IMG/VR virus record: IMGVR_UViG_3300000101_000012
Coordinates: 1 to 62,465 of that record
DNA: 62,465 nt
Strand: one strand, 5' to 3'
Origin: a virus
How positions within the stretch are numbered: the first letter of the stretch is position 1; every line of letters begins with the position of its first letter. The position numbers and the translations under genes are program-made. Positions 9,625-40,900 of the stretch are shown here, piece by piece. A model generated the notes under the pieces. It had not been told where the DNA came from, did not search any database, and was given only the letters and a program-made list of their open reading frames with translations.

Positions 9625-11649
9625 TTATGCAATATTTTTAGCGACGTTATTTAAACCGTCTGCCATTTCTTCACCAGAACGTTTAACTGCATCTATATTA
9701 GCAGACATAATGCTAGGCAACGCCATAATAGCATCTTTTGTTTCTTTGTCAAGTACACTTGCTGTTGGGCTCTTCATAATTTCACCCATGCCAGCAGAGT
9801 CGCCGTCTCCAAGGGACCGCATTGATTTTTCTAAATCCATTTGCTGAAGTTGTGCTATCTGTTGATCTATACCGCCCATAATCTGGTTAAATCCTGAAGC
9901 TGGGGATATATTTCCGTTTTGCTGTGGCGTAAAGAATTCTTGCCCTTGCTCATTTACACGGTATGTATTCCCGCCTATCACTGGGCCCCCAAGTGCCCTG
10001 TCATCTAGTGGTGAAACCCTGTCAATTAAGTCACGTAAGTGACTGTCTCCTCCACCTCCTCCACTGTCCGCACTTATACTGCTTGTAAACTTCCCAAGTG
10101 CCTGTGTAAAAGTGCTTCCCGTGTTTATAGCGTTTGTAAATGCATCTAGTGAATTAGTTAATCTGTCAGTGCCACTAGCTATAGCTTCACTAACTGCACT
10201 GCCGCCCTCGCCGCCTAGTATTTTAAAAGTTGCAGCATCAACAGCTTTAGCTGATTTCTGCGCTAATTGAGTCAGCTTAACCATGGTTGCGTCTAGACCT
10301 TCTGCAGCCTTACTAACAGCATTTGCATCTGTTATAACTTTGCTATACGTTGCATTAGTTAACTTAGCTAATTCTTCAGTAGCCGGGATAAACAGTGATT
10401 TACCCATATCAGTAAAGGAATTAGCCATCCCAGTTCCAACAGTCAGTTTTAATACATCTTGTATTTCATCTAGTTGTCTGCCTGCTGCTGTTTGGTCAAC
10501 ACTTCCAAATCCAGCAGCAAGATCGTTTATCCCGGCAGCCCCATTTTTTATACCTTTTGCTAAATCTCCCATAGGCCCAGCTACAGCTGGCATACTGGAT
10601 GCAAACTGACCAGCACCTACACTTACGGTTTGGCCATGGACTAACATTTCTTTTGCATACTGAGCTCCAGCGGTACCATAACTTTTTCCCATTTGCTCAA
10701 TAAACTTTAAGGCTGTTTGAGCCTGCTCTGCTTCCATCCCCCGTACTGCGACCCTGGAATCGATGTCTTGCGCTTGAGCTTTTGCTTTCTGTCGTTCTTG
10801 ATCCAGTGTAGTTCCATTAATTGTAGCAAACATTTTTTGTTGCCGTGTTAAATTTGCCATGCCTGCAACAACTTGTTTAGTGGGAAGAGTTCCAAGATCA
10901 GCACCGAACCTAGCTAAATTTCCAGTATACTCAGCCATGGCTATACCTTGTTGCTCGATACTCATTCCCATTCTAATGAAATCTGCCTGCAGTGGACTAT
11001 CTTGTAATCCTTTGTTAAATCTAGCAAACTGTCTAGCACCCTGATTAGTAGTTCCACCAAAAAATTGTAATGCTTCAGCTGATTGAGCTGATATTCGTTG
11101 TAATTGTCCCATGGTTAAACCAGATTGATTTGCTATATCAGCAAAATTCATCATACTGTTTCCAAAACTACCGCCAGATTGTTGAACTTTTTCATACGAT
11201 TCAGTAACACCAGCAATTTTTCCCACTATAATACCAGCAGCTACTCCACTAACAGATCCTAGAATACTTGGCAACCCTTCAAGCATCTTTTGTGCGCCTT
11301 CGCCCATCATTAATAAACGTGAAGAAAGAGTTGCACCAGAAGTTGTTACGGCTCTGCCAAACGACATTGTAGCCATGGAAATATTTTGTTTTGCCTCGCT
11401 ACTCCATTTTTGTACAGACGCTGATGCATTGTTAAATGCTTTAGTAGCAAATCCTGATGAGTTAGCCACACTGTTTAACCCACCAGCGGCTTTACCAGCG
11501 GCTACATTAGCTGAATTAATATTATTTGAATTGATGTTTGCGGCTTTAGTAGTTTGGCCAAGCAGGCTTTTAATGTCCTGAAGTGTGTTTTCTTCAGCAG
11601 CATTGTTTAAAGTTACGGGTTGTCCACCTAGATCACCTGTTACAGCCAT
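9625..11649 (-). CDS. Tape-measure-like tail protein
   Basis: 674 residues, rich in Ala, Gly, Ser and Gln, mainly helical, with a hydrophobic Gly-rich stretch at about residues 127-147 (SILGSVSGVAAGIIVGKIAG) that resembles the membrane-active segment of tail tape-measure proteins. The length exceeds T4 gp29 (590). The ruler protein sets tail length and leaves through the tube on infection. Its neighbour on the opposite strand is the gp26/gp51 pair, which looks like a tape-measure chaperone with a frameshift; this strengthens the call. The C-terminal 130 residues (PVIGGNTYRVNEQGQEFFTP) match the Gly-rich phrase often found near the end of such proteins. It lacks the size of long siphovirus rulers. 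Confidence 0.7.
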   Translation of the reverse strand: MAVTGDLGGQPVTLNNAAEENTLQDIKSLLGQTTKAANINSNNINSANVAAGKAAGGLNSVANSSGFATKAFNNASASVQKWSSEAKQNISMATMSFGRAVTTSGATLSSRLLMMGEGAQKMLEGLPSILGSVSGVAAGIIVGKIAGVTESYEKVQQSGGSFGNSMMNFADIANQSGLTMGQLQRISAQSAEALQFFGGTTNQGARQFARFNKGLQDSPLQADFIRMGMSIEQQGIAMAEYTGNLARFGADLGTLPTKQVVAGMANLTRQQKMFATINGTTLDQERQKAKAQAQDIDSRVAVRGMEAEQAQTALKFIEQMGKSYGTAGAQYAKEMLVHGQTVSVGAGQFASSMPAVAGPMGDLAKGIKNGAAGINDLAAGFGSVDQTAAGRQLDEIQDVLKLTVGTGMANSFTDMGKSLFIPATEELAKLTNATYSKVITDANAVSKAAEGLDATMVKLTQLAQKSAKAVDAATFKILGGEGGSAVSEAIASGTDRLTNSLDAFTNAINTGSTFTQALGKFTSSISADSGGGGGDSHLRDLIDRVSPLDDRALGGPVIGGNTYRVNEQGQEFFTPQQNGNISPASGFNQIMGGIDQQIAQLQQMDLEKSMRSLGDGDSAGMGEIMKSPTASVLDKETKDAIMALPSIMSANIDAVKRSGEEMADGLNNVAKNIA

Positions 11650-11728: not shown

Positions 11729-12601
11729 GTGAATGAGACTGTAGAGAAGAATACGGCATCAGCTGATAATCCGTTGTCTAAATACATGCGAAATCCACAA
11801 ATTTACATTAATTTACCCAGTGGCGGCAAGTATTGGACACCAGAATCTTTGGAGATGCCAATTAATCAAGAACTTCCAGTATTAAGCATGAGCAGTTACG
11901 ATGAGCTTCTGCTTAAAACTCCTGATGCACTAATGAACGGCCAGTCTGTTGTTGATATTATACAGAGTTGTATTAAGCCAATTAAAGATGCTTGGCATAT
12001 GCCTGTTACAGATCTAGACTATTGTTTAATAGCCATTCGTATTGCAACTTATGGGGAAATGATGGGATACAGTAGTACTTGTCCTAAGTGTAGTGAGTTT
12101 AACGAATACGAAATCGACTTAAAAGAGTTTTTAAATTTACCAGTAAACATGGAAGTTTTTGACCAGATTGTCAATTACGATGACCAACTTACAGTTAAAA
12201 TTAAACCCAGAACTTATCGCGATGCAAACAAACAGAACATGGAAGTGTTTGAGCAACAGCGTATTGTTAACCTAGTTAACGACGAGTCGATAGATGCAGA
12301 AGTTAAACAAGAAAAGTTTAATGAAATATTTGCTAAAATTACACGGTTAAGTTTAGCAACTGTGGTAGGAAGTATTGAGTATATTCAAGTAGGAGAAACC
12401 AAATATACCCAACCTGCTTTTATTGAGGACTTTGTAGCTAATACTGATGTAAAGGTTTTTAGAAAAGTTAAAGATCATCATGAAATTACTAACAAAGCAA
12501 TACCTGATAAAACTATTAAAACATCATGCCCAGACTGCGGCCATCCATACGAAATGCCATTTAGCTTCGACCACGCAAATTTTTTCGCATTAGCCTCTTG
12601 A
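11729..12601 (+). CDS. 26: Baseplate hub / tail assembly protein (gp26-like, T4_baseplate family)
   Basis: 290 residues. Blocks typical of the gp26 family are IYINLPSGGKYW (residues 26-36) and the segment DELLLKTPDALMNG (58-71). Two CxxC pairs, C118/C121 and C267/C270, form a probable zinc-binding unit found in many marine relatives. An AGGAG ribosome site precedes the GTG/ATG region. Near the 3' end the sequence AAATTTTTTC (12577-12586) carries two overlapping slippery heptamers, and the next gene is open in the -1 frame. A shift there would give a fusion of about 362 residues. In other tailed phages such pairs are tape-measure chaperones; the T4 product is called a baseplate hub subunit. 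Confidence 0.88.
   Translation: MNETVEKNTASADNPLSKYMRNPQIYINLPSGGKYWTPESLEMPINQELPVLSMSSYDELLLKTPDALMNGQSVVDIIQSCIKPIKDAWHMPVTDLDYCLIAIRIATYGEMMGYSSTCPKCSEFNEYEIDLKEFLNLPVNMEVFDQIVNYDDQLTVKIKPRTYRDANKQNMEVFEQQRIVNLVNDESIDAEVKQEKFNEIFAKITRLSLATVVGSIEYIQVGETKYTQPAFIEDFVANTDVKVFRKVKDHHEITNKAIPDKTIKTSCPDCGHPYEMPFSFDHANFFALAS
12577..12586 (+). promoter_or_regulatory. Candidate -1 ribosomal frameshift site
   Basis: In the gp26 frame (GCA AAT TTT TTC) both A-AAT-TTT and T-TTT-TTC fit the X-XXY-YYZ rule for -1 slippage. The -1 frame is open from just after a TAG at 12562-12564 to the TAA at 12814-12816, running straight into the gp51-like sequence. The zero-frame stop is only five codons beyond. Confidence 0.6.
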
Positions 12602-12816
12602 GCCAGAGCAGACCTGAAATTATCAAGACGCTCGAACGTTTGGAGCAGGAGGCGAAAGATTTTAAAAAGCGGTTACTAGAGTTATGTTGGCACATGCGTG
12701 GTGGGCTAGCATTTAACGAAGTCATGCAGATGTCGGTCAATGACCTTGCGATTATAAATGACATTGTTAAAGGTAATCTGGAAATTGCTAAAAAGACAGG
12801 TCTGCCGTACTTTTAA
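12598..12816 (+). CDS. gp51-like small protein, possibly made as a gp26 fusion by -1 frameshift
   Basis: 72 residues if translation begins at the TTG at 12598, which is a weak start with no clear ribosome site. The frame is also open upstream to 12565 and can be entered from gp26 by -1 slippage at 12577-12586. The product is helical (ETL-type coiled start, then HMRGGLAFNEVMQMSVND and a conserved-looking end LEIAKKTGLPYF). The gene position right after gp26 corresponds to the gene 51 hub-assembly role in T4 or to the G-T part of lambda-type tail chaperones. The lack of a good independent start favours the frameshift model. Confidence 0.65.
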   Translation: MSQSRPEIIKTLERLEQEAKDFKKRLLELCWHMRGGLAFNEVMQMSVNDLAIINDIVKGNLEIAKKTGLPYF

Positions 12817-12995
12817 TCTCTTTCTGCGAAATCAACAGGGTCTAAAGAAACCCTGCCTTGCAAGCAATGGTCAGTTTCACTGCGATGTTGGAGCTCTATT
12901 TTGCTTCCAAAGTTAAATTTGTATCCTAAACGATCGGCTACATTGCAGAACTCAAGAAAAGCACTCTCAAGTTCGACTACATCTCTTTTCATCAT
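12813..12995 (-). CDS. Small hypothetical protein (60 residues)
   Basis: The ATG at 12995 is preceded by AAGGGA at about 10 bases, better than the in-frame GTG at 13013. The product begins MMKRDVVELESAFLEFCNVAD and has two cysteines. It overlaps the end of the gp51-like gene tail to tail by four bases. A strong host-type promoter (TTGACG, 17 bases, TATAAT) lies 63 bases upstream on the same strand, so the gene is probably expressed early in infection. Function unknown; small early phage proteins often act on host processes, but nothing in the sequence shows this. Confidence 0.55.
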   Translation of the reverse strand: MMKRDVVELESAFLEFCNVADRLGYKFNFGSKIELQHRSETDHCLQGRVSLDPVDFAERD

Positions 12996-13057
12996 TTTTC
13001 CGTTTCCCTTCACTATATTACTTAAGGTAGCAGTATTTAATACCAGAGAATACAGTG

Positions 13058-13599: not shown

Positions 13600-14055
13600 T
13601 TAGTCTTGATTTGATTCATTGATGACGTGTTGACTTTGATGGACTCTAACTCTTATTTGTCCATTATAATATTCGTCTGATTCTAATACTTTGTGCCTAA
13701 ACTGTTCTCTTGCTTCAACGTAGCTACACTCTGCCTTGCTATAACAATAGAAGAGTATTTCACGTTTAAAGCAGCTTTTGCCGAGTGCTTCGATGTCTGC
13801 CGTTAGTTCGTTTGATGAGCCGTAATATGTTTGCCAGTCTGAGTCTATTTTTTCTCTTATTTTTTTACGTTTCTTTTTACCGTTTTTTAACTTAACTATA
13901 CGATACTTGGTTTTTGCAAATTTTGCAAGTTTTTTTCCAATATATTTTCGATTGTTAGTTGTATTTGTAATAATGTATACAAAACCTATACAATCAGCAG
14001 GTAGTTCTGTAACTTCGTTTAATGAAACGCCATCAGACTTTATCCAGTTCGTCAT
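13600..14055 (-). CDS. GIY-YIG family putative endonuclease
   Basis: 151 residues. The GIY-YIG core is visible at residues 24-41 as FVYIITNTTNNRKYIGKK, followed by a Lys/Arg-rich insert (KLKNGKKKRKKIREK), then DSDWQTYYGSS, FKREILFYCYSKAECSYVEAREQ with the likely metal-binding Glu, and YYNGQIRVRVH at the end. This layout recurs in many marine T4-like phages. Such proteins are either homing endonucleases (Seg type) or host-DNA nucleases; the substrate is not known. It is the last gene of the gp55-gp47-gp46 operon, 45 bases after gp46. Confidence 0.82.
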   Translation of the reverse strand: MTNWIKSDGVSLNEVTELPADCIGFVYIITNTTNNRKYIGKKLAKFAKTKYRIVKLKNGKKKRKKIREKIDSDWQTYYGSSNELTADIEALGKSCFKREILFYCYSKAECSYVEAREQFRHKVLESDEYYNGQIRVRVHQSQHVINESNQD

Positions 14056-14100: not shown

Positions 14101-15855
14101 TCATACAACTTCCACGTCAGTATCGTAACTGGTATATCCGTTTTCCTTAACAACTTTTAGTATATTGTTAACCCTGCCGGCTAGTTCGTCCTTGTGACTA
14201 ACTAACCACACACTCTTGTTACGATCTCTGCTCATTTTCTTTAAACTTGCAAGGGCTGCATCAACACCACTAGCATCCATACCGCTGTCTACAACTTCGT
14301 CAATGAACAATAAGTTAATAGGATGATATAAACTTTCCCAGACATCTCTAAAAGCCCAGCTTAGTGAAAGTATAAGCCTGTTGCGCTCGCCTCTGCTTAA
14401 ATTATCAAAGTCCAAGTCTCTGCCAAGTTCCTGTATCTCAACGCCAAGATCGTTCATAAACTGTACTGTATGTGGCAATCCCATTTTACCCAAGTAAAAT
14501 GTTAACCTAGCATTAAGGAAGCTCAAGTTTTGTTCAATAATACGTTTACGTATAAAACTATCTTTGTTAGTTAACAGTTTAAACAAGAACTCCTGATGAT
14601 CTTTTACGCTGTTAAGTTTATTAATAGTATCCCAGTCTACTTCTTTGACGGCGGCGTTTTGCATGTCGTCAATTTGCTCGGCATAAGGGTCATCTTCACT
14701 TCGTTTACTTTGTAGCTGTGATTCCAGCGTTGCAAGGGAAGATTTGTGTCCGTGAGCTTCATTGACATCGTCATAGAAAGTTTTAGGTGGAGCGGGTAAG
14801 GTTTCCTGTTGACTAACAAGTTCCTCTTTTGCTGTCTGTAATTCTCTAAAGAAATTATTTGCGTCATTGTAATCTTTCTCCGCATCAGCTATATGCTGTT
14901 TATGACTATCTAAATGTGTAATACTTTGATTACAACTATGACATACACCGTCTTGCCACCCTTCCAGGGCTTTTGTAGCTTTTTTAACATCACGCTCGGC
15001 TCTACTAAATTGTGCATCTAGTTGAGCAATGTCTTTTTGCAGTTGGTCCTGTACAGATTTTTTAGTGTTCCATGAACTTAGCTCTGCATGCAACTCTATC
15101 TCAGCTTCAATGTTAACATGACTCAAATCATCTATAGCTTGTTCAAGTTTAACTACTTCTTCGCCTAACTTGGCAGTCCACAACCGTTGCCGTCTTTGCA
15201 TGGCTTCGATCTGTTCTTGTATTTTTTCATTAGCCTCTTGTACTGCTTTAATACGAAACTCTTCTTCAGTAATTAAGTCTCTGGTTTGTTTAGTTTGTTC
15301 TTTGAGGTTCTCAGCTTTTTCACTAAGCATAGTAATGCCCAGCATTTGTTCGATGATGTCCCGCTGATCATTAGCACTTAAACTTAAAAATGGTTGCGTA
15401 TACGTGTTAAGAGCTACCAGATGCTTGAACATTTCATGACTCATGCCCAGCATTTTTTCAATAGCATGTTGTGTTTCTCTGCTATCTCCCTGTTGCTCTT
15501 CTGTCTCGCCTTCTCCAACTACTAGTTTAAGTACGTTGGGTCTACGCCCACGCTCTATGTGATATTTAATACCGTGTAGTTCAAAATCAACAGTAGTAAC
15601 CATATTTTTACCATTGGTTTTGTTTATTAAGTTGTCACGCTTAATACTAGTTAACGCTTGACCGTAAAGAGCATAACTAAGTGCATTGATGATTGTGGTT
15701 TTACCCGTGCCATTTCTGGCTCCTGAGTCGTCACCTCCTTGATCTAAATTTTCACCAAGTACAAGAGTTAAGTCTTTACGGTCAAAGTCGATAGCCTGAG
15801 TTTGATTGCCCACGCTCATAAAGTTTTTTACTGTTAGTGTGTTTAGTTTAAACAA
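14101..15855 (-). CDS. 46: Recombination endonuclease subunit gp46 (SbcC/Rad50 family)
   Basis: 584 residues, close to T4 gp46 (560). It has a Walker A motif GARNGTGKTT (residues 45-54), a long coiled coil broken by a zinc hook CHSC near residue 303, the ABC signature LSRGERNR near residue 485, and Walker B LLFIDEVVDSG near 518. With gp47 it resects DNA ends for recombination-dependent replication and host DNA breakdown. It is unusual that gp47 is not directly adjacent: an SGNH-like gene lies between, and gp46 overlaps it by 13 bases. Confidence 0.96.
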   Translation of the reverse strand: MFKLNTLTVKNFMSVGNQTQAIDFDRKDLTLVLGENLDQGGDDSGARNGTGKTTIINALSYALYGQALTSIKRDNLINKTNGKNMVTTVDFELHGIKYHIERGRRPNVLKLVVGEGETEEQQGDSRETQHAIEKMLGMSHEMFKHLVALNTYTQPFLSLSANDQRDIIEQMLGITMLSEKAENLKEQTKQTRDLITEEEFRIKAVQEANEKIQEQIEAMQRRQRLWTAKLGEEVVKLEQAIDDLSHVNIEAEIELHAELSSWNTKKSVQDQLQKDIAQLDAQFSRAERDVKKATKALEGWQDGVCHSCNQSITHLDSHKQHIADAEKDYNDANNFFRELQTAKEELVSQQETLPAPPKTFYDDVNEAHGHKSSLATLESQLQSKRSEDDPYAEQIDDMQNAAVKEVDWDTINKLNSVKDHQEFLFKLLTNKDSFIRKRIIEQNLSFLNARLTFYLGKMGLPHTVQFMNDLGVEIQELGRDLDFDNLSRGERNRLILSLSWAFRDVWESLYHPINLLFIDEVVDSGMDASGVDAALASLKKMSRDRNKSVWLVSHKDELAGRVNNILKVVKENGYTSYDTDVEVV

Positions 15856-16548: not shown

Positions 16549-17559
16549 TTATAGATTCCTGTAGATATCCAACATTAAGTTTTTGTCATACTGAGGACTA
16601 TCTAACTGTGTTAAGTGTGATGTAACAATACTATCCACACTTTCAAAGTTAACTTCGCCCTCAAAACTCTGAGCATGATCTTCGACTCCTACTCTTGGAA
16701 TAAGACTAAGCTCTCGCAATCCAAATTCTGGTACCAGTGTTTCCTTGATAAAGTTTGCTTCTTCGTAACTGATATCAACGTCAAGTTCCACACGACAATA
16801 CATATTAGGTTTTAGTAAGTTATCAGTGTCTTCCAAAATATTACTAAGCAAATATCTCCTGTACTTGGGAGCATCAGGCCATGCAATGTACTCAATTTCG
16901 CCTCCCCATTCAAGTATCATACATCCGCGATCATCGTCACCAGCGTCTGCATAATTGTGTGGGAAAGCATTTCCTATGTATGTAATATTGCGGCTTGTTT
17001 GGCGTTTATGGAAGTGTCCAGTAAAAACATTTTCGCATTTTAAATCTTCACGTTTAAGTTCTCCAACGTCAGGCATACGCACCATTGCGTTCATGTAAAA
17101 GTTTGGTAGTTCTAAATGACCAAACATGTACTTGGCTTCAATCTTGGGAACTTTAGCAAATTCAGATCCTACTAGCCAGGGCATAATACAAACATCGCTG
17201 TCCAAAGTAATGTCATCATAAAGTCGAACATTATCATACTTCTTGGCCCACACAATACTGTTAAACTCTCGAGTATCACGATAGTGTTCATCATGGTTAC
17301 CAGGCAAAAATACTACACTGGCAAAGTTTTCACTGAGTTTGTCAAATGCTTGTACACTATAGTTAAGTGTACCAATATTTAGACTTGCACGATTGTGATG
17401 CCAATCTCCTAAAAATACACAGGTTTCGCAGTCGTTAGCCTTTGCTGTTTCAATAACAAAGTCTATAAATTTTAAACAATCTTGGTTGTGTATTTTGCTG
17501 TTTGATTTTAGGCCAAAGTGTATGTCGGTAAAGAATATTGCTTTCTTAAACAGATTCAC
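16549..17559 (-). CDS. 47: Recombination endonuclease subunit gp47 (SbcD/Mre11 family)
   Basis: 336 residues, the same size as T4 gp47 (339). The calcineurin-like metallophosphatase motifs are complete: DIH at residues 12-14, GDWHH at 51-55, GNHDEH at 87-92, and GHFHKRQ further on. The enzyme is the Mn-dependent nuclease partner of gp46. The start overlaps the stop of the sigma factor gene by four bases (ATGA-like junction), so gp55 and gp47 are translationally coupled. Confidence 0.96.
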   Translation of the reverse strand: MNLFKKAIFFTDIHFGLKSNSKIHNQDCLKFIDFVIETAKANDCETCVFLGDWHHNRASLNIGTLNYSVQAFDKLSENFASVVFLPGNHDEHYRDTREFNSIVWAKKYDNVRLYDDITLDSDVCIMPWLVGSEFAKVPKIEAKYMFGHLELPNFYMNAMVRMPDVGELKREDLKCENVFTGHFHKRQTSRNITYIGNAFPHNYADAGDDDRGCMILEWGGEIEYIAWPDAPKYRRYLLSNILEDTDNLLKPNMYCRVELDVDISYEEANFIKETLVPEFGLRELSLIPRVGVEDHAQSFEGEVNFESVDSIVTSHLTQLDSPQYDKNLMLDIYRNL

Positions 17560-28400: not shown

Positions 28401-28969
28401 GTTTAGAAACTTATAAAAGTGTTAGTGATGCTATTATCTTTAACAGTGTTAATTATAGAACACTGTTTGGTGATAAGGCAGATGCGGAGTTGCAAGCTAC
28501 ATTTAAGGTTGTAAAAAACAAGGCTATGTTAGTTAGTGACAACGAGATTAAAGCTAGAGTAGTACAGGAAGTTAATAATTACTTTAGTGTTGAAAATTGG
28601 GACTTTGGCGATACTTTTTACTTTAGTGAACTAGCAGCCTACTTACATAATGCATTAACACCAGACGTACTAAGTGTTATTATTGTTCCTAAAAATAGCA
28701 CCAGTGGATTTGGAAGTTTATACCAAATTACTAGTAGCAAAGATGAAATTTTTATTAGCTCAGCATCAGTCAATGACATAGAAGTTATTGATGTTATTAC
28801 TGCTTCACAGTTACAGGCTAGTGGTGACGTAGTTAATAGCACTACAGACATTAACACAATAGAAAGTGTAAGTTCAGGAAGTGCTAGCTCTGCAATAGAA
28901 ACTACTACTAATACTTCACTAGGCACTACTACTACCAGAACAACTGACGCAGGGGGTTATAGTTACTAA
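25433..28969 (+). CDS. 6: Baseplate wedge protein gp6
   Basis: 1,178 residues, about twice T4 gp6 (660). The N-terminal 110 residues (WTKVYESFKEIDFQSYDFQTIRK, DMIAYIAQSLSFRSDLNARENF, RDSILRLAKMLNYFPKRS) are the conserved gp6/gpJ wedge core. Residues 130-450 contain the baseplate J-like domain; the C-terminal part is a long set of beta segments ending in a Ser/Thr-rich tail. gp6 dimers form the iris ring that opens on attachment. The stop overlaps the next ATG by one base, tying its expression to the giant protein. Confidence 0.93.
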   Translation: MASTARSTNLFASEDWTKVYESFKEIDFQSYDFQTIRKAMVDYLQEFYPEDFNDYIESSEYVALIDMIAYIAQSLSFRSDLNARENFLETAERRDSILRLAKMLNYFPKRSQVSRGLLKVDSLQTTENIFDSNGNNLASTEIFWGDETNPDFLEQFTSIMNAATVRTQRFGASALKSTIAGIAVEEYNLSTVPNTVPVFNFNNTVSGSQLSFEIVNGTYSGTDFLYEVPPEPGTTINTIYRNDSRGFNSVNTGYFFYFKQGDLKTVDFNIDEALPNRVVDIDINSIDNNDVWLYQLDSNGAEETLWTKVPAISGNSVIFNSLSKNNKTLYNVQSRSGDQISLIFGDGVFSNIPQGNFRLYCRVSNGQTYKISPSDMSDVVITLPYVSHTNQVETLTLNMSLKQTVSNASSRENLLDIKARAQQQYYTQDRMITGEDYQIFPFTSFNNIIKSKAVNRTSSGISRYLDVRDTTGKYSSTNIFCEDGIFYRESTLPTFNFTFVTDSDIDSIITTQIEKIMQANSMYHYFLDNEPRFDVTGLGITWQQSTIGTGVCTGYFQNSAGNPQQVAGFTSNNLKYFKEGSLVKFTAPAGYVFDVNNNLIIGTSGTLNTKTDIWASCGNLVDDGTNQGAGNLDSGSGPVTLTEIIPDLAILETVILPWNTSLTSTVRQSLINDISEHKTLGIRYDRDTQAWAIISSSNLNQTTTFSTTNSGSTAGTNLDASWLFLLTNDGETYTVKYRQLDYIFESQLETRFYFDKDLKIFDPRTSKTIRDKIVMLKVNSLPDSNTNFAQDYVMNVDDTIVEDDGFIRTERIKVTFPNTDGDSVIDNPDVFDVIVSPNTNVASKVVFYKSYLDGNGYTKLEPVPATDVESLYTTLTAVTAIKDTYSSGQIFYTSSTGKFYILSVNSVNEKIVTETTDYITKTGRSKLLFQYTHNAPNNRRIDPSPSNIIDLYLLTKQYDADFRNWVTDITGSVIKPVKPNTNELRDAYGSLETYKSVSDAIIFNSVNYRTLFGDKADAELQATFKVVKNKAMLVSDNEIKARVVQEVNNYFSVENWDFGDTFYFSELAAYLHNALTPDVLSVIIVPKNSTSGFGSLYQITSSKDEIFISSASVNDIEVIDVITASQLQASGDVVNSTTDINTIESVSSGSASSAIETTTNTSLGTTTTRTTDAGGYSY

Positions 28970-31900
28970 TGGCTCTTAAAAAAACTAGTCAGTTACTACC
29001 TGAAGTTTTCCAAACCAATAAGAATAATAAATTCTTAAACGCAACTCTTGATCAGATTATAAGTGATGATAACAAGAAAAAGTTTAGTGGTTTTATTGGT
29101 AGAAAGAATTCTGAAAACTTCCAAGCGACTGACAATTATATTACAGAACCCAGCAATATTAGACAGGACTACCAATTAGAACCTGGAGTAATATATCAAG
29201 ATAGTGCTGGAGATATTAAAAGTGTTAGCAGTATTATTGATAGCCTCAATACTATTAAGTATAACAATGGACAAGTAGACAATCAAGACTTATTGTACAG
29301 ACAACAGCATTATAACTGGAGCAGTTTTGTTGATTTTGACAAGCTGATCAATTATGGTGAATACTTTTGGTTGCCCGGCGGTCCTGACAGTGTGCAGGTG
29401 TTTGCTGGAACAGTTGACACAACTCATGACTATACAGTATATCGTGAAGGCACCACTTATGAACAGATTGAATATGATACCACTGGATTTGATGAGAGCA
29501 TATTTGATGAACGTACTAATGCAGTAAATAGTGGCGCATTAACTTACAAATTTGACAGTGCTACAGCTAGTCCAAATCCAACTTTATATTTGGCACGTGG
29601 TGGAGAATATACTTTTAAAGTTGATCAGCCGGGAATTCCATTCTGGATCCAAACTGAAACTGGAACAGACGGCATTGATGACGAACAAGCAAATATAAGC
29701 ACACGTGAAGTAGATGGTGTTACTAACAACGGCGAAGATGACGGAACAATAACTTGGAGAGTGCCACACAGTGACGCACAAGCTGAGTTTACTGGAATGA
29801 CAACTGATGCAGTTGTAGACTTGGCAACGCCACTGGTATACAGAGAAATACACAACCAAACTTTAAGTGCTTTTCTGGCTACATATGAAACAGGCATTGA
29901 TGGACTAACAGAATTTAATGGTAAAACATTAATTTTTACTAACCACAGTGTAGATGAAACAGACTGGAACCAGGGAAGTTTGTTTGATGCTGATCCGTTT
30001 GATAGTGGCAGCGTTGAAGGAGCTCAAGGAACATTTGATCCTGTATCAGCATTAAGTGAAAGCGAACGCTATGGTATCTTTAGAATAGATGTTAACGATG
30101 TTGATGGTATTGATATTATACAGTTAAGCAGAGTTCAAGATATTACACAGGGAAATAAAGTTTATATTAAACAAGGTGTAGTAAGTGGAAGCAGAGAATA
30201 TTATAAAGATGCAAGTGGATTACTACAACTAATCCCAAATATTACAGCTAGTCAGGATACATTCTTTTATCAAGACAATACAGATGAAAATCGATTTGGT
30301 AAAATTATACTTGTGGATCAAGGTGCTACCAGCCAAATTAATATTACAGACGAACTTCTTGGCAAAGAAACTTATACCTCACCTAACGACGTAGTGTTTA
30401 CCAACGGACTTAAAGTAGAATTTGACAATAGTGTTACTCCTGAATCCTATCGCAACGAAACATATTATGTTGAAGGTGTTGGAAAGAAGATTAAACTAGT
30501 TAAGGTAACAGACCTAAGCACGCCTGAAACTTATACTAAAACAGAATCAGAGCCATACGACAGTGAAAACTTTGACGTTGGCGGTTATGAAAGTTCAAGG
30601 AGTAGTCCAACTGACCAGGACTATATTGTTATTCATAGGGCAAGTGAAGACAATAATGCATGGAGCCGTGGTAACAGGTGGTTCCATAGAAGTGTTATAA
30701 CAAAAACTGCTGAATACAACAACTTTACTACTGTTATAGATGATACTGCTAGAGCTAAACGTCCTATTATAGAGTTTGACGCTGGGTTACACCTATACAA
30801 TATGGGCTATAATAGCCAGCCTCCAGTGGACATTATTGACACAACACAAACTGACGCATTTAGTAATATTAATGGAAAACAAGGTTATTTTTCAGATGGT
30901 ATTGACTTAACTCCAGGGCGTACTATATGCTTTACAAAAGACCCTGAAATACAAGAATGCATTTATACTATAAGCCATATTGATCAAGATAGTGACTTAC
31001 AAACTGATCCAATTATTCAGTTAACTAAAACAGGCACAGTTAGCCTTAATGATTGTATGTTGAGTAGGTTAGGTGCTACCAACCAGGGAAAGATGTTCCA
31101 CTATACCACTGATACTTCTGGTAACAGTGTGTGGAAAGAAGCACAACAAAAAACAAAGATTAATCAGGAACCACTGTTTGATGTATTTGATGGAGATGAC
31201 GTTTCCTTTAGTGATACAACCAAGTATCCAAGCACTAATTTTGTTGGTAATAAACTGTTTAGTTACAAAAGAAGTACTACTGCTAGTGCTGACAAAGTAT
31301 TAGGATTTGCACTAACTTACAAAAATATTAACAATGTTGGCGACATACTATTTGATAACAATTACGTAAACGACAAATTTACATATACTAAGTCAGATAC
31401 TGGCGCTGTAGACATCATTATTAAAAGTGGACACATACACAAATATGATGCTGGTGTTAAAACACTGAGCAACGGATGGACAACATCCGTTAGTGAAAGT
31501 AAACAGTGGCAACAAGTTCAGCACATTGTTGATGTTGAGAAGTTTGTTTTTGAAATAGGATGTAAGCCAAAAGAAATAACTATAGAAACAACTCTCCAAG
31601 TATCTGTTAATGGTGTATTTCAAACTGCTGACAAATTTACACAACTTAACCAAAATGAAAAATACTATGTAAGTTTCTTTTCAGCACTAAAGACTAAAGA
31701 CACTGTTTTAATTAGAGTTTACAGTGACGATCAAAATAAAATAGGATTTTATGAAGTACCTAGTAACTTAGAAAACAATGCCAATAACGCAGACTTTGCT
31801 ACATTAACACTGGGACAATGCCGAAACCATCTTGTAAACATGACTAGAACAATAAGTCAATTTACTGGAAAGAGCTTGGGTACTAATAACCTTAGAGACT

Positions 31901-34900
31901 TAGATTATAAAAAATATCCAGGAAATATTTTACAACATAGTGCAGGTGCTACACTAGCGCATCACTTGTTGGGTAGTGAAAATAACTTGTTTGTCGAAAG
32001 CACAGAGTACTCATTAAATGAATACACTAGATTTAAGAACAGACTACTTGACAACATAGATAAACTTGATCTAGATCTTAGAGATCCAGTCGGGTCTCTT
32101 GATACTATAATGACATTTATGGTTGGAACTAAGAGCAGTAATTTTCCATTTTATTACACAGATATGATTCCCTGGGGTAGTGAAAAAACAACCACAACAT
32201 ATGTTTTAGATCAGATAACTGAGCGTACATTTACATTTAAAAGTCAATTTGACTTGTCACAAGTTAGTTCACGTGGGTTGCTAGTATACTTAACAAACAC
32301 TACTACCAGTAACGCTGTACAACTTGCATATGAACACGATTATACTCTTGATACAATAGAAGCAGCACTTACATTGAGTAATGATATTACTTTGTCGATT
32401 GGAGATACTATTAAAATTGTTGAGTATTCAAACACCAATGGCAGTTTTATTCCACCAACGCCAAGTAAACTAGGACTTTATCCAAAATATCAACCAGTTA
32501 TTACATTGGACGACACTTATCAAACTGAGGTTTTAACAGGAACTGGTCCTTTTAAAATTTACGGAACTGCACAGGATCGTTATACACAAAACGGTGAAAG
32601 AGAAACTGGATGGTTTTATCCACTGTATACAACAAGCGCGGCTGCTGGAGATGGAAGCCACACACATAAGTTTGAAGGAAGCGACAGAGTTTGGCATATG
32701 TCCTCATCTGGCGCTACGCATGCTGGTATTGACAACAGCGACTATGATGAGTACACTAACTACACACCAGTTTTACTAGGACATGACGGAAGTCGTTGGG
32801 TAGTATATAAAGATATACGTGATTTAATTCTACTAGAATACGAAAAACGTGTGTATAATAATATTAAAACAAACTACGATGCAAAGACTTTTGACCTAGC
32901 TGATGTACAAAGTGGATACCACAGAAACACCGAGCTAGAATTAGCACAGGAAAATGCTATACTAGGTAGGCTGTTTACCAGCTGGGCGCACAAGAACGCA
33001 CTTAGATATCTTGATAACGATGCATATGATGCTGAAAATAGTTTTACGTGGAACTATACTCTAGGCACTACTGCAGATAAAGGTTTTCGTATGCCAGGTT
33101 ATTGGCGTGGAATATATCGTTGGTTATATGATACAGAAACTCCACACTTAACTCCCTGGGAAATGTTGGGCTTGCACGTAAAACCAAATTGGTGGGATTT
33201 ACGTTATGGTAAAGCACCATATACCCGTGGTAACTATGTTCTCTGGGAAGATCTTGAAAAAGGTAAATTGTATGAAAGTGCAAGCAGAGATGCAGAGTTT
33301 ACAACTGAAACTTTACGAGTACGTCCAAATCTAACTGATTATATTCCAGTAGACGATCAAGGCCAACTTCTTTCACCAGCTGAGTTTTTATCCGTAGATG
33401 TGTTTTCTAGCAATGCTGATATATCCTGGGCTATTGGAGACTCTGGGCCAGTAGAGAGTGCATGGAGACGGAGTAGTGAATGGCCGTTTGCCCAACAAGT
33501 TTTATCAGCACTTAGAAAGCCAGCAAAGTACTTTGCTTTACTTTGGGATACTAACTTAATTAAGTATGATGCAACTTATGATCAAATTTTACAAAAGAAC
33601 AAGAGCTATAGACCTAAAATAAACGAATATAAAGTTAATGGTACTACTATTACCAATACTACTACAATTAACCGTGTAGAAGGTTATAACCAGTTTATTG
33701 AGAATTATTATAAGTTTAAAAATTTAGACATAGCTAACTTGCAAACAGAGATACAAAATTTATCTTTGCGTCTAGTATATCCAACGGCTGGATTTACAGA
33801 CCTATCACAAAGTAAAATTATAATTGAAAGTACTACACCAACAAGCACGGGAAACAATATTTTTATACCTGACGAGAATGTTTCAGTTATTGTTAATAAG
33901 AGTACTCCACTGGAAAGGATTACTTATACAGGTATTAATATTATTAAACGAAAAACTGGTTATGAAATTACTGGCTTTGACGTTAATAATCCGTTCTTTA
34001 AGATTGTGCCAAGTGTAAAAACTACAAACAACAGAAAAATAACAGTTGGAGAAAGAACTGCAATCCTGTATGATGACGGTGAACGACATATTATTAATGT
34101 AGCATATGGCACCATTATTCCAACAATACAACAAACAGCAGACTTTTTAATAGCCTATCAAAGATATTTAAAAACAAAAGGTTTAAAGTTTGAAACTTTA
34201 AATAGTATCAGTGAGCCAAAAGATTATACCTTAGCTGTTAAAGAATACTTACTATGGACTCAGCAAGGATGGGCTGATAATTCAGTGCTAGGTATTAGTC
34301 CAGCAGGAAACGAACTCAGAGTTAATAGGTTAAACACTACAACTGATAATTTAAACAAGTTTGGCAATATTAAAAATCCAAGCGGTGTTGCAATACGACC
34401 AACAGATTATGATGTTAGCAGAATAGATAATGAAACTGTCATTACTACTGATCCAGTTAAAAATAGCATTTACGCAGCACAAATAGATCCTATTCAATAT
34501 GAGCATTACTTGGTATTAGATAATACTACAATTTTTAACGATGTCATTTATCAACCAGAGCTTGGAAACAGACAAGCTCGTGTTAAGTTTGTTGGATTTA
34601 AAAGTAGTCCATGGAATGGTACATTACATGCTCCAGGGTTCTTAATTAGTAAAAATGAATATAATTTATGGATACAAAACACAGATTATAAGAAAGGCGA
34701 CATAGTAAGTCATAATAAAAAACTTTATGTAGCCAAAGATAATCATGATGGAGAATCTAAATTTCACTACAATAACTGGTTGCCAATTGACAATATGAAG
34801 TCTGGCTTATTGCCAAACATAAGTCAAAAGGCGCAGAGATTTACTGAGTTCTACGATTTAAATACTAGTAACCTTGAAAGTACTACTGATTTAGCTGCAA

Positions 34901-37900
34901 AAGGACAAATTGGTTTTAGGCAAAGAGAATACTTGGATCAACTAGGATTAGATGACGTAAGTCAGGTTAAGTTCTATCAAGGGATGATCAGAAATAAAGG
35001 CACTAAAAATGTTATTGATAAGCTAGTGCATGCTGACCTTACTAACTTGGATCAAGAGATTAATGTATACGAAGAATGGGGTGTGCGTGTAGGTGCTTTT
35101 GGTAGCATAGACAGTAACCAGGTTATTGAACTAGTAGTTAATGAAGCAGAGGCGCAGAACAATCAGGTAGTAGTTGAGTTACTGGACAGTAACGATACTG
35201 CTGATGTTGATAGACTAAGTTATTACGAAAAAGATCTTTACAAAGTTCCAAATAATTTTAGTAAAAACATATTCCTTCCTAGAAGCTCAGACAATAAAAA
35301 AACTGATATTGTTGGTGCTGGATATCCAAGATTAGATGATGCAGACTTTACTGTTTTTAACTTAGAAGACAACTTAGAAATTCTAACTGATAGTGTTGAT
35401 AAAATTGGTCGTGGAACAACAATCTGGACTGTTAAATCAAATTTTGACTGGGACATATATCGTGTAACAGAAGTAGTTGCTGAAATAATTAGTATTGAGC
35501 AAACTGGCACTGAAGCAATCACCTACACAACAAATACTGCACATGGAATTGTTAAAAATGATATTGTGGTTGTTAAATCAAGTAACGACGTTGCAGGCGG
35601 GTTACACAAAGTTATAAGCACTGGCGGTAGTACAACATTTACGGTTGGTATTGAAGACGGTATTGAAATAGATGCATCTGGCAACTTAGTTATACCGCTG
35701 TTTAAATTAGTAAGTGTTCGCTTTCCTGCTAAATCTAATATTGCAAACTTTACGCCAGCATACGGCTGGGAAAAGAATGAAATTACATGGGTAGATGCTA
35801 CAGAAGATAGCCAGTGGGCGGCATATAGAAAAGACAATCCCTGGGACTTTAACAGCGTCAATTACAACATCGAATCATCAGGTAATGCTGCAAACGGCAC
35901 TAGTCTAGCAATTAGCAACGATGCATTGGCTGTTTTTTCCGGAGCACCAGAACAGTCAACAGGTGCAGTGTATCCTTATCTCAGAGATGACTCAGGTGTG
36001 TTTAATCCAGATTCTACCCTGGCACCCAGTGATATTGGTTCTAGCATTGATGCTTTTGGATTTAGCGTTGCCGCCGGAAACGAATATATAGCAGTGGGTG
36101 CGCCAAGTACCGATAGCAGTAACGGCGCAGTGTTTGTTTATAAACGTAGTTCTAATGGATCGCATCTACTTCAACATACCATAAGACTTGCATCGCCAGG
36201 GTCTAGTGCTAAGTTTGGTTACAGTTTAACAATGAGTAAAAACGACAGGTACATGTATGCAAGTGCTACTGGTGAAAACAAAGTGCATGTGTACACTCTA
36301 GTAGAAGTTGCTACTGTCGACGAAGTAAGTCAAACTTTTACAGGAGACGGCAGTGATCAAACTTTTACTCTTACTACTACTCCAGCAAGCATTGATGCAC
36401 TTTACATACAAGACGGAAATGGTAAAGAATACCTTCCTTATAAAGACTATACACTAGGTGGAAGTGTAATAACATTTACTACCGCGCCAGCTAACACTCT
36501 TAGTGTTGTTGTTAGACAGCGTAGTTATTATAAACACACAGCCAGCTTTACTGGTAGTGATTCAACGGCTGGAGATCAGTTTGGTTATAACATTGACACT
36601 GATACAGCAGGTGAAACAGTTATTGTTGGTGCACCGTTTAGTACTGTTGGAGCATTTCCTGAAGCTGGTGAAGTATACCTATTCCATCACATAGTAGAAC
36701 GATTTACTGGTGACGGAGTTACTACTGCATTTACTACATCTAATACATTACCCAGTAACTTTTATATTGAAGTTGACGGCGTAAAGCAGGTTGCAGCCAC
36801 TGGTAGCTTTAGTTCATTCGACAGTGATAGTAGTGAGAACCGTTATACAGTTTCTGGAAATACTATTACTTTTAGATATAGGCCAACTGATGGACAAGTT
36901 ATCCGTGTATACACTGGTAATTTTGCAGAAATTCAGAGACTAGATCAAAGTCAAATAACTGGCCAAGCACTTGGAGATAACGAGCAGTTTGGAACATCAG
37001 TTGGACTAGATGCATACGGCACGATAGCTGTAGTTGGATCACCAGGAGAAGATGAAACTAATCCTAACACTGGTAGTGCATTTGTGTTTATTGATGAAGG
37101 ATTACGTTTTGGCTCAGTTACGACTGCTAGCAGTAATGCAGCAACATTCCAGCAACAACTGGATAGTATATTTGTTGATGACTTTGAAGTTGTAATGAAT
37201 TTTAACACTAGTGCAAGTCCAAGTGACTTTGCATCTTCGGTTAACAATAGCAGTAATTTAACATTGCATGATGCAAATCTAACTAGTACTGGTCAAGTAA
37301 CAATTACTAGTATAAATCAAGTACCAAACCAAAAGCTAAAAGTGCGGCCTGGCACTGGAGATACATTCCGTGTACGAGCAGAAGTAGAACCTTTTAAGTT
37401 TAGTCAAAAAATTAACCATCCGTTGTTAGTTGAGAACGAAAATTTTGGTAGAGTAATAGCTTTTGATAAGCATATTCCTGTAAGCGGAGTAGCTAATCAA
37501 CGTTGTGTTATTAGTAGTGATCGTGCTAGCACAATGCTTGATGTTGCATTTGACAGAGACACAGTAACTACATCACTAACATATAACGACGCTTTGACAA
37601 CCTTTGATGCAGACAGTACTAAGTTTATTGATCGTGTTACACAAAGCGGAGCCGCATATGTTTACGACTTGCTAGACAGTACAGTAACCACAGGAACTGT
37701 ACAAAGTATTAGTAATCCACCACTTTATGCTTACGGGCAACAGTTAAGAAATACCAAGATAAATGAATTAGATAAATTTGGTTCTAGTTTAGCAATAAAT
37801 CGTGGTCGATTATTTGTTGGTAGTAGTGCAGACAATGAGTGGAAAACAAATGCTGGTAGCTTCTATTACTTTAATAATGCATTAAACAAAAGTTCTTGGG

Positions 37901-40900
37901 AAAAGTATAGAGAGCAAACAGCTAAAATTAACATTGATGTTATCAATCGTGTAGCTACATATGATAAGACCAATAGCGAGATTATTGACTTTGTTGACAC
38001 TATAGACATATTTAAAAATAAGTTGCCTGGCAGAGTACAATCAGAGCTAGACTATATTTTTCCAATTGATCCTTCTACGTACAGTGTTACCACTATACCT
38101 AACGAAGTTACACATTCAGAAAATAATAACTGGGATAATGAGTATGTTGGTAGACTTTGGTGGGATTTAAGTACATGCCGTGTTATTGAGTACGAGCAAG
38201 GTGAATTAGACTACAGAGTTCAAAATTGGAACCGATTCTTTCCTGGAAGTTCAGTAGACATTTATGAATGGGTGCAGAGTCCTGTATTGCCAAGCGAACA
38301 TGTACAGTTTGGTTTAGTAGGTACGCCTAAATATGAAAATGACGAGGCTTATTGTGTATCCTTACAATATAATCCTGCAACTAATAGTACTGTAACACGT
38401 TACTACTATTGGGTAACTGGACTTAACGTATACCCTGAAGATGATCGTAGACATCTTAGTACTGAAAGTGTTAGACAACTTATTGAAGATCCAGCAAGTG
38501 CAGGACTAAAATATCTTAGTGTTGTAGATAAGAATGCTTTTATAATGAATAATCTTAGTAGTACCTGGGCAGACAGAAATGTTGTTCTTAGTATTAACTA
38601 TGATGTTGTTAAAAATGAAGGTATACTACACAGTGAATTTGAACTAGTTAGCGAAGGAGATCCTGACCAGGACATTCCAAGAGACATAAAGACTAAGTTA
38701 ATAGACAGTCTTGCTGGAGCTGATAAAACCGGAGCTGTTGTGCCAGACGCATCATTAAGTCAAGGAGAACGCTACGGAATTGCTATTAGACCAAGACAAA
38801 CATTATTTGTTAACAGACAGCAAGCATTAAAGAATTTTATTACTTACTGTAACAAGGTGTTCCTTACTACGCCTATTAGCAGACAATTTAGTCTTACTAA
38901 TTTGTTCCTAACTGATCCAGAGCCAACTAAATCAAGCGGAGCCTGGGATCAAAAGGTTGCTGATATTACTACTAGAGATTTTCTTAATACATTAACATTT
39001 AGTGCTGGATATAAAGTACTTGTTGAGAGTGATAGTACTCTAGGCGGTGATTGGGCTATTTACTCACTGGTAGTAGAAACTGATAATACTCGTACTTGGT
39101 TTTTAGACAGAGTACAAGCATTTAATACTGCTAGGTTCTGGGAGTATACTACTTGGTATGCCGACGATTATGACAGCACCACAATTCCGCAATTTACTGT
39201 TGATACAGAGCCAGATTTAATTGCACTTACTACTGCGGTTACTGGTGATATTTCTAAAGTATTAAGCAACGATGATGGTAACTATAGTTTCTTTAAGTTG
39301 ACAACCAGTGGCTGGGATGAGATTATTATTGAGAACGGAACTATTAAGATACTGGACACAATATATGACTTTGCTAATGTATCCAGTGGCAGTTACATTG
39401 GATTTGACAGTGGTGTGTTTGACTTTGAAAAATATGATCGTGTGCCGCAACAGGAAGTTAGAAATATTGCAAACGCAGTTTTTGATGAAATTTTTGTAGG
39501 CATACTTGCTAGCAATAAAAACGAACTGTTCTTTAGAATGATCGAGTATGCGTTGCAAGAGTTACATCTTAGTAATACAGACTGGGTATTTAAGACCAGC
39601 TTTATTAAAGTATTACACAAGATAAGAAACCTAGACCAGTATCCAACATACCAGTTAGATAATAGTACGTTTATTGAAGAGTTTATTAATGAAGTTAAGC
39701 CTTATCACACTAATATTAGAGAGTATGTAGCAAGTTACGACGGCGATGACCAGTTCCAAGGCGATATAACAGATTTTGATCAGCATAGCTTTTTTGATAC
39801 AACAACAAATTATTTTAGAAAACCCAGCGGCGATTTTGGTGGTGACGAAATTACTCGCACACAGGGCCTTAACAAGTCGTGGAGTGAGAACTACACTTAC
39901 TATCTAGACAGTATTGTTATTGTAACTGCTGGAACAGGATTTTTAGATAATCCAATAATCACAATTAGTGCGCCTGACTCAACTAGTGGAGTACAAGCAA
40001 CTGCAACGGCTGTTACAAACGGAGACAGTATTGTAAAAGTTACGGTAACTACTAAGGGAAGCGGCTATACTAAAAATCCAACAATTACTGTAACAGGACA
40101 AGGTTCTGGCCTAGTACTAAATCCAAGAATTGCAAACGATACTAATCGTGAGTTTGATACTACAATTAAATTTGATAGAATTGCTTACAGTAGTACTGTT
40201 AAAGACTGGACTGCTAGTACAAGTTACGACTACCAAGATTTAATTGCACACTATAATGAAGTTACTGGTAAACAGGAAGTTTATGAAGTTACTGCAACTG
40301 GTGGATTTACAAGTGGAACTACATTTGGAGTAGAAAATAATACTGGCACTGAAATACTTGTTGCATACGCAGATGAAAATTTAACTAGTGCCGCAGATAG
40401 AATTGCAAGTTACTACGTGCCTGGAGTTGGCATGGTTGGAGACGACTTAAACTTACTACAGCCTGGAACAGATTATAATGGAAACAAAGTAAGTGGACTA
40501 GGTTTTGATAGGGAACCTGGATATGATAGCGCAGTATGGGACATTGTTGGTTTTGATAACTTTGAAGTAGATGCAGACGGACTTGCAGTTACTAGCGGTA
40601 TAGACACTGTAATGAGCAGCACGTTTACTGACTTAGCACTTGGTACAGCACCAGAAGATATCAATATAGACGGTGGACTATTTGTAGATACACATTCGAG
40701 TCATGCACCAGAAGAAGTAGTTCCAGGAGTTGTTTTTGACAATCTAGACATGGAAGTGTATACTGATCCTAGTGATGACTTTTTAGGAGACGGGAATGGA
40801 TTTAAATCTGTTACCAGAGTTTATACAGCAGACGGCACTAATAATAAGTTTAGTTATGCCAATTCGCAGCGTAAAGAGCTCGTTGACTACCTGGTAGTTT

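Follow-up and report, generated by a model that had tools for sequence, protein, structure and literature searches.

A probable frameshift site near the end of the gp26-like gene

How is the −1 reading frame expressed that overlaps the end of a gp26-like gene in virus record IMGVR_UViG_3300000101_000012? We analysed a window of 62,465 nt from this record, on which all positions are counted. The gp26-like gene lies on the plus strand at 11729..12601 (GTG start at 11729, TGA at 12599–12601), and the open −1 frame lies on the same strand at 12565..12816. Relatives conserve both the open −1 frame and the slippery heptamer T TTT TTC, and on this ground we regard programmed −1 frameshifting as very likely. 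We hold it to be highly probable that the gene gives a short tail assembly chaperone and, by a stem-stimulated −1 slip on T TTT TTC, a long form of 362 amino acids (aa).

The gp26-like product (290 aa) matched PF12322 (T4_baseplate, 5.8e-19) and phrog_150 (baseplate hub, 1.7e-21), and its open reading frame (ORF) ends, codon by codon, in GCA AAT TTT TTC GCA TTA GCC TCT TGA. An earlier note on this DNA had proposed a double slippery run here, and the heptamers A AAT TTT (12577..12583, plus strand) and T TTT TTC (12580..12586, plus strand) are indeed both in the gp26 frame. The conserved heptamer is T TTT TTC, kept in 179/179 relatives, whereas A AAT TTT is common in near relatives and absent in others. 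The latter heptamer occurs in frame 8 times in the ORFs of the window, which is unremarkable, and may or may not contribute to the slip. In contrast, TTTTTTC occurs in frame once in the 43 long ORFs (19,313 codons), at the gp26 site, and this site is the only one of the 31 Phe-Phe pairs in the window that is spelled T TTT TTC.

As the earlier note claimed, no stop interrupts the −1 frame between 12565 and 12813; TAA at 12814–12816 closes it. Its post-slip codons (12586–12813) encode 76 aa, and the product of a slip on T TTT TTC, computed from the window sequence, would have 286 + 76 = 362 aa, in agreement with the fusion of roughly 362 residues that had been predicted. The sole possible start near the junction is the TTG at 12598..12600 (plus strand), which overlaps the gp26 stop (TTGA) and might act as a weak, coupled start for the −1 ORF. 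It has no Shine-Dalgarno (SD) sequence, and the earlier description of a weak start lacking a ribosome site was correct.

Conservation of the site among relatives

Relatives were gathered by the similarity of their gp26 proteins, and the slippery site was not a criterion. The 179 loci comprise 81 window-type and 18 jumbo-phage loci whose 3′ end was readable (99 together) and 80 cyanophage-type loci. NNT TTT TTC was found near the gp26 stop in 99/99 of the former, with 1–11 codons from TTC to the stop, and TTTTTTC in 80/80 of the latter, with one codon separating it from the stop. The apparent exceptions L061 and L091 were mis-started and have the site; L074 and L087 end before or at it. In all 179 loci, the −1 frame is open and gives FFR…. 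The earlier note would have abandoned the frameshift if relatives lacked the run or had a gap between the genes; the run is present in 179/179, and the −1 frame overlaps gp26 in the relatives.

The base 3′ of the heptamer was G in 174 of the 179 loci, and the 0-frame residue at this place varied (A, G, V, E, and others). This G gives Arg in the −1 frame, which indicates that at this base the −1 reading is under selection. Conservation of the −1 product begins at the slip (FFR..LL), and F1, F2, and R3 were invariant in 58 sequences. Only 2 of the 119 other Phe-Phe pairs in the gp26 genes of the same relatives were spelled TTTTTTC. T TTT TTC was also observed in Kyanoviridae records and in the Schizotequatrovirus phi-ST2 (Straboviridae), and its counterpart in phiN3 and pf16 is T TTT TTT.

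Predicted stimulatory RNA element

A stem-loop, which the earlier note does not mention, was predicted downstream of the heptamer. Its 5′ arm, GCCTCTTG (12593..12600, plus strand), starts 6 nt past the heptamer and pairs with the 3′ arm, CAGGAGGC (12646..12653, plus strand); in near relatives, the predicted stem consists of GCCTCTTGA paired with TCAAGAGGC. We compared the loci with synonymous resamplings that kept the protein and the codon usage, counting stems of at least 7 bp anchored 3–8 nt after the heptamer. Such a stem was present in 66 of the 81 window-type loci, against 19.4 expected. The mean folding z of 63 non-redundant loci was −3.22 at the site and −0.67 to +0.07 at 12 other gene positions. 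The position of the 5′ arm is constant and the 3′ arm differs among subgroups, which suggests that the stem was remade several times.

The stem signal was weaker in the cyanophage-type loci (39/80 against 13.3 expected). These loci (L129–L208) have a codon bias towards an SD-like GAGGG approximately 10 nt 5′ of TTTTTTC, and an SD-like element likewise lies upstream of the slippery site in dnaX. The Glu codon at position −5 before the slip was GAG in 54 of 69 cases, compared with 28% elsewhere (binomial p ~1e-17, with loci that are not independent). Upstream SD-like motifs were almost absent from the window-type and jumbo-phage set (1/99), and no Rfam family matched at the site. The candidate stimulatory element is thus the stem in the window group and the SD-like codon bias in the cyanophages; the jumbo phages show no such element.

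Identity of the short and the predicted long product

T4 gp26 and T4 gp51 both matched PF12322 (8.8e-64 and 3.9e-52, respectively). In profile comparisons, the window-type fusion aligned with the cyanophage fusion (1.4e-12) and the cyanophage fusion with T4 gp51 (8.6e-15), in both cases through the junction. These results indicate that T4 gp26 is the counterpart of the short form and T4 gp51 that of the long form. The direct comparison with T4 gp51 was weak (E 1e-4, probability 57%), and for the −1 tail against the gp51 C-terminus it was not significant; the link between the tail and gp51 therefore runs through the cyanophages. The earlier note had taken the −1 ORF for a gp51-like gene, but the ORF does not amount to a whole gp51. 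It corresponds to the C-terminal extension in T4 gp51 and to the entire gp51 of cyanophages, and gp26 itself is homologous to the remainder of T4 gp51. The cyanophage "gp51" is the −1 extension of gp26.

The small −1 ORF alone matched no Pfam family, and the copy in the window gave only chance PHROG matches. AlphaFold predicted gp26 with a pLDDT (predicted local distance difference test) of 91.4 and a helical C-terminal extension with a pLDDT of 89.4. The gp26 model matched only predicted T4-like hub and chaperone proteins, the model of the tail domain had no structural match, and the gp26 sequence profile had no PDB relative. None of the GenBank records inspected annotates the fusion. In cyanophages ACG-2014b, ACG-2014h, and S-CAM1 (L209, L210, and L211), the −1 extension is unannotated and leaves a gap of ~180 nt before the next gene.

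Alternative explanations

The alternative that survives best is that of two separate genes, in which the −1 ORF is made by termination-reinitiation at TTG 12598 and there is no fusion. The TTGA overlap in the window is compatible with it, 44/99 window-type and jumbo-phage loci have an ATG, GTG, or TTG at most 15 nt from the gp26 stop, the first start in 37/80 cyanophage-type loci is an ATG 3 codons past the slip, and several GenBank records give the −1 ORF as a separate small gene. However, 49 of the 99 loci lack ATG, GTG, and TTG within 12 codons past the slip, although the −1 residues there are conserved as FFRIRIL..EIL. The codons concerned vary most at the third position, in a modest periodicity test on 8 and 7 non-redundant loci. 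Independent initiation therefore cannot be the shared mechanism, although it may add to the −1 product in some phages. A strong separate start of the second gene had also been named as grounds for rejecting the frameshift, and no conserved start was found. Moreover, two separate genes would account neither for the anchored stem nor for an in-frame T TTT TTC that never varies, and T4 gp51 carries both parts in one protein. We consider this explanation improbable.

Transcriptional slippage would mean that RNA polymerase inserts an extra base at the T6 run and that the altered mRNA is then translated normally into the fusion. It agrees with the conserved core being a homopolymer run, and is still less probable. 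Slippage by bacterial polymerases is known to require longer runs, and each of the 179 loci has exactly six T and then C, with no run longer than that. The codon phase of the run is also fixed, and the RNA stem stands at the spacing of ribosomal frameshift sites. A chance run beside an unrelated ORF, a sequencing error, or a decayed gene has a negligible probability, even though the window is AT-rich and has XXXYYYZ heptamers in frame 96 times in its ORFs, as the site is conserved across the 179 loci down to ~20–30% protein identity with the window and 33 nt around it are identical at 62% protein identity, by which chance is already refuted.

Several observations weigh against a stem-stimulated frameshift that yields a tail assembly chaperone. 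The relatives share ancestry, and the locus counts are not independent. The jumbo phages had no significant stem (3/18 loci against 4.1 expected). About half of the loci have some ATG, GTG, or TTG near the junction, and in some phages a small protein of its own could additionally arise by coupled re-initiation. No solved structure was a convincing match for the gp26 model, and no solved tail chaperone matched it. The tape-measure candidate of the window is weakly identified and lies on the opposite strand, and hhalign comparisons of this divergent neighbour with T4 gp29 and with S-PM2p209 were negative.

Proposed mechanism

With these points weighed, we favour programmed −1 frameshifting within gp26. 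The gene would yield a 290-aa short form that probably acts as a tail assembly chaperone. The downstream mRNA stem-loop would pause ribosomes, and a fraction of them would slip by −1 on T TTT TTC, both tRNA-Phe re-pairing with TTT TTT. After the slip, CGC and 75 further codons would be read to give the 362-aa long form with its predicted helical C-terminal extension. If lambda gpG/gpGT is a guide, the tape-measure protein may be coated by many copies of the short form and few of the long one, the extension of the long form may recruit tail-tube subunits, and both forms may be absent from the finished virion.

Comparison with known systems

The slippery heptamer of lambda is G GGA AAG and that of the window is T TTT TTC. 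The window also differs from lambda in that its tape-measure candidate is divergent and not downstream, its proteins belong to gp26/PF12322, and its group has a strong downstream stem. The likeness to lambda gpG/gpGT, whose role and frameshift mechanism are described in PMC5009743, lies in the pair of a short and a long form (290 and 362 aa here); T4 is called the exception in that paper. T4 has a homologue of each form, gp26 of the short one and gp51 of the long one, from two genes on opposite strands that have no slippery site.

In the cyanophages (S-PM2 and other Kyanoviridae), an identical T TTT TTC stands immediately ahead of the gp26 stop and leads into the same −1 extension, which the records either call gp51 or leave unannotated. 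Unlike the window, they have a tail-tube-like gene upstream and a tape-measure-like gene downstream on the same strand, together with the SD-like GAGGG. The Pakpunavirus and Andersonviridae systems (PMC12846349) are alike in layout, in that the 3′ end of the short-form gene carries a polyT −1 site and the long extension is often unannotated, but belong to other phage families and use a GTTTTT motif.

The earlier note would have extended the lambda mechanism to a T4-like gp26/gp51 pair. The conservation described above supports the mechanism, but in principle this extension is not new. T4-like tail assembly chaperones with separate short and long genes were identified by Vladimirov, Gautam and Davidson 2022 (Virology 566:9–15), as cited in PMC10274946 and PMC12846349, and the latter credits that study with polyT −1 signals in T4-like phages. 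Frameshifted chaperones of this kind are thus already known, long since in lambda and as a proposal in T4 relatives. The stimulatory stem with its shifting 3′ arm and the wide comparison of lineages may be new.

We give an even chance to an ancestral T4-like chaperone that was frameshifted on T TTT TTY. Its stimulator would have turned over by lineage: in marine phages it would be a stem whose 3′ arm migrates, in cyanophages an SD-like motif, and jumbo phages would have neither. T4 would have exchanged recoding for duplication into a short 26 and an in-frame long 51. The frameshift in gp26 would bring the T4 relatives under the rule, general among long-tailed phages, of a set ratio between short and long tail chaperones. 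For the cyanophage "gp51" and many small unannotated jumbo-phage ORFs, the best reading is that each is the C-terminal half of a frameshift fusion. The loci also offer a large natural collection of slippery sites, differing in their stimulators, on which measurements could be made.

Gene neighbourhood

The divergent neighbour of gp26 (9625..11649, minus strand; 674 aa) is a candidate tape-measure gene with a weak match to phrog_10574 (tape measure, 2e-5). The earlier note had placed a tape-measure-like gene next to the pair on the other strand; the placement was right. Because the hhalign comparisons were negative, its identity as a tape measure rests on the weak PHROG match, the position, and the variable length. 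A large divergent ORF of varying length is found at the same place in 93 of the 99 window-type and jumbo-phage loci. The candidate adjoins gp26, with the portal gene beyond it, in the window and in most jumbo phages; these lack the usual, though not strictly defining, arrangement of a chaperone pair immediately before a tape-measure gene of the same strand. In cyanophage S-PM2, the pair is flanked by tail-tube-like and tape-measure-like genes, which is the lambda-type order.

Elsewhere in the window, a single ORF of 4520 aa (28969–42531, plus strand) has no Pfam match in its first 1200 residues. A 66-aa ORF on the minus strand (12813–13013), for which no family was found, abuts the stop of the −1 ORF with its end. 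Just past the −1 ORF lies a SegE-like GIY-YIG homing endonuclease gene (13600–14055, minus strand; PF19835, 1e-32), next to which is an AAA/SMC-type (gp46-like) gene (14101–15855), with a metallophosphoesterase (gp47-like) gene nearby (16549–17559).
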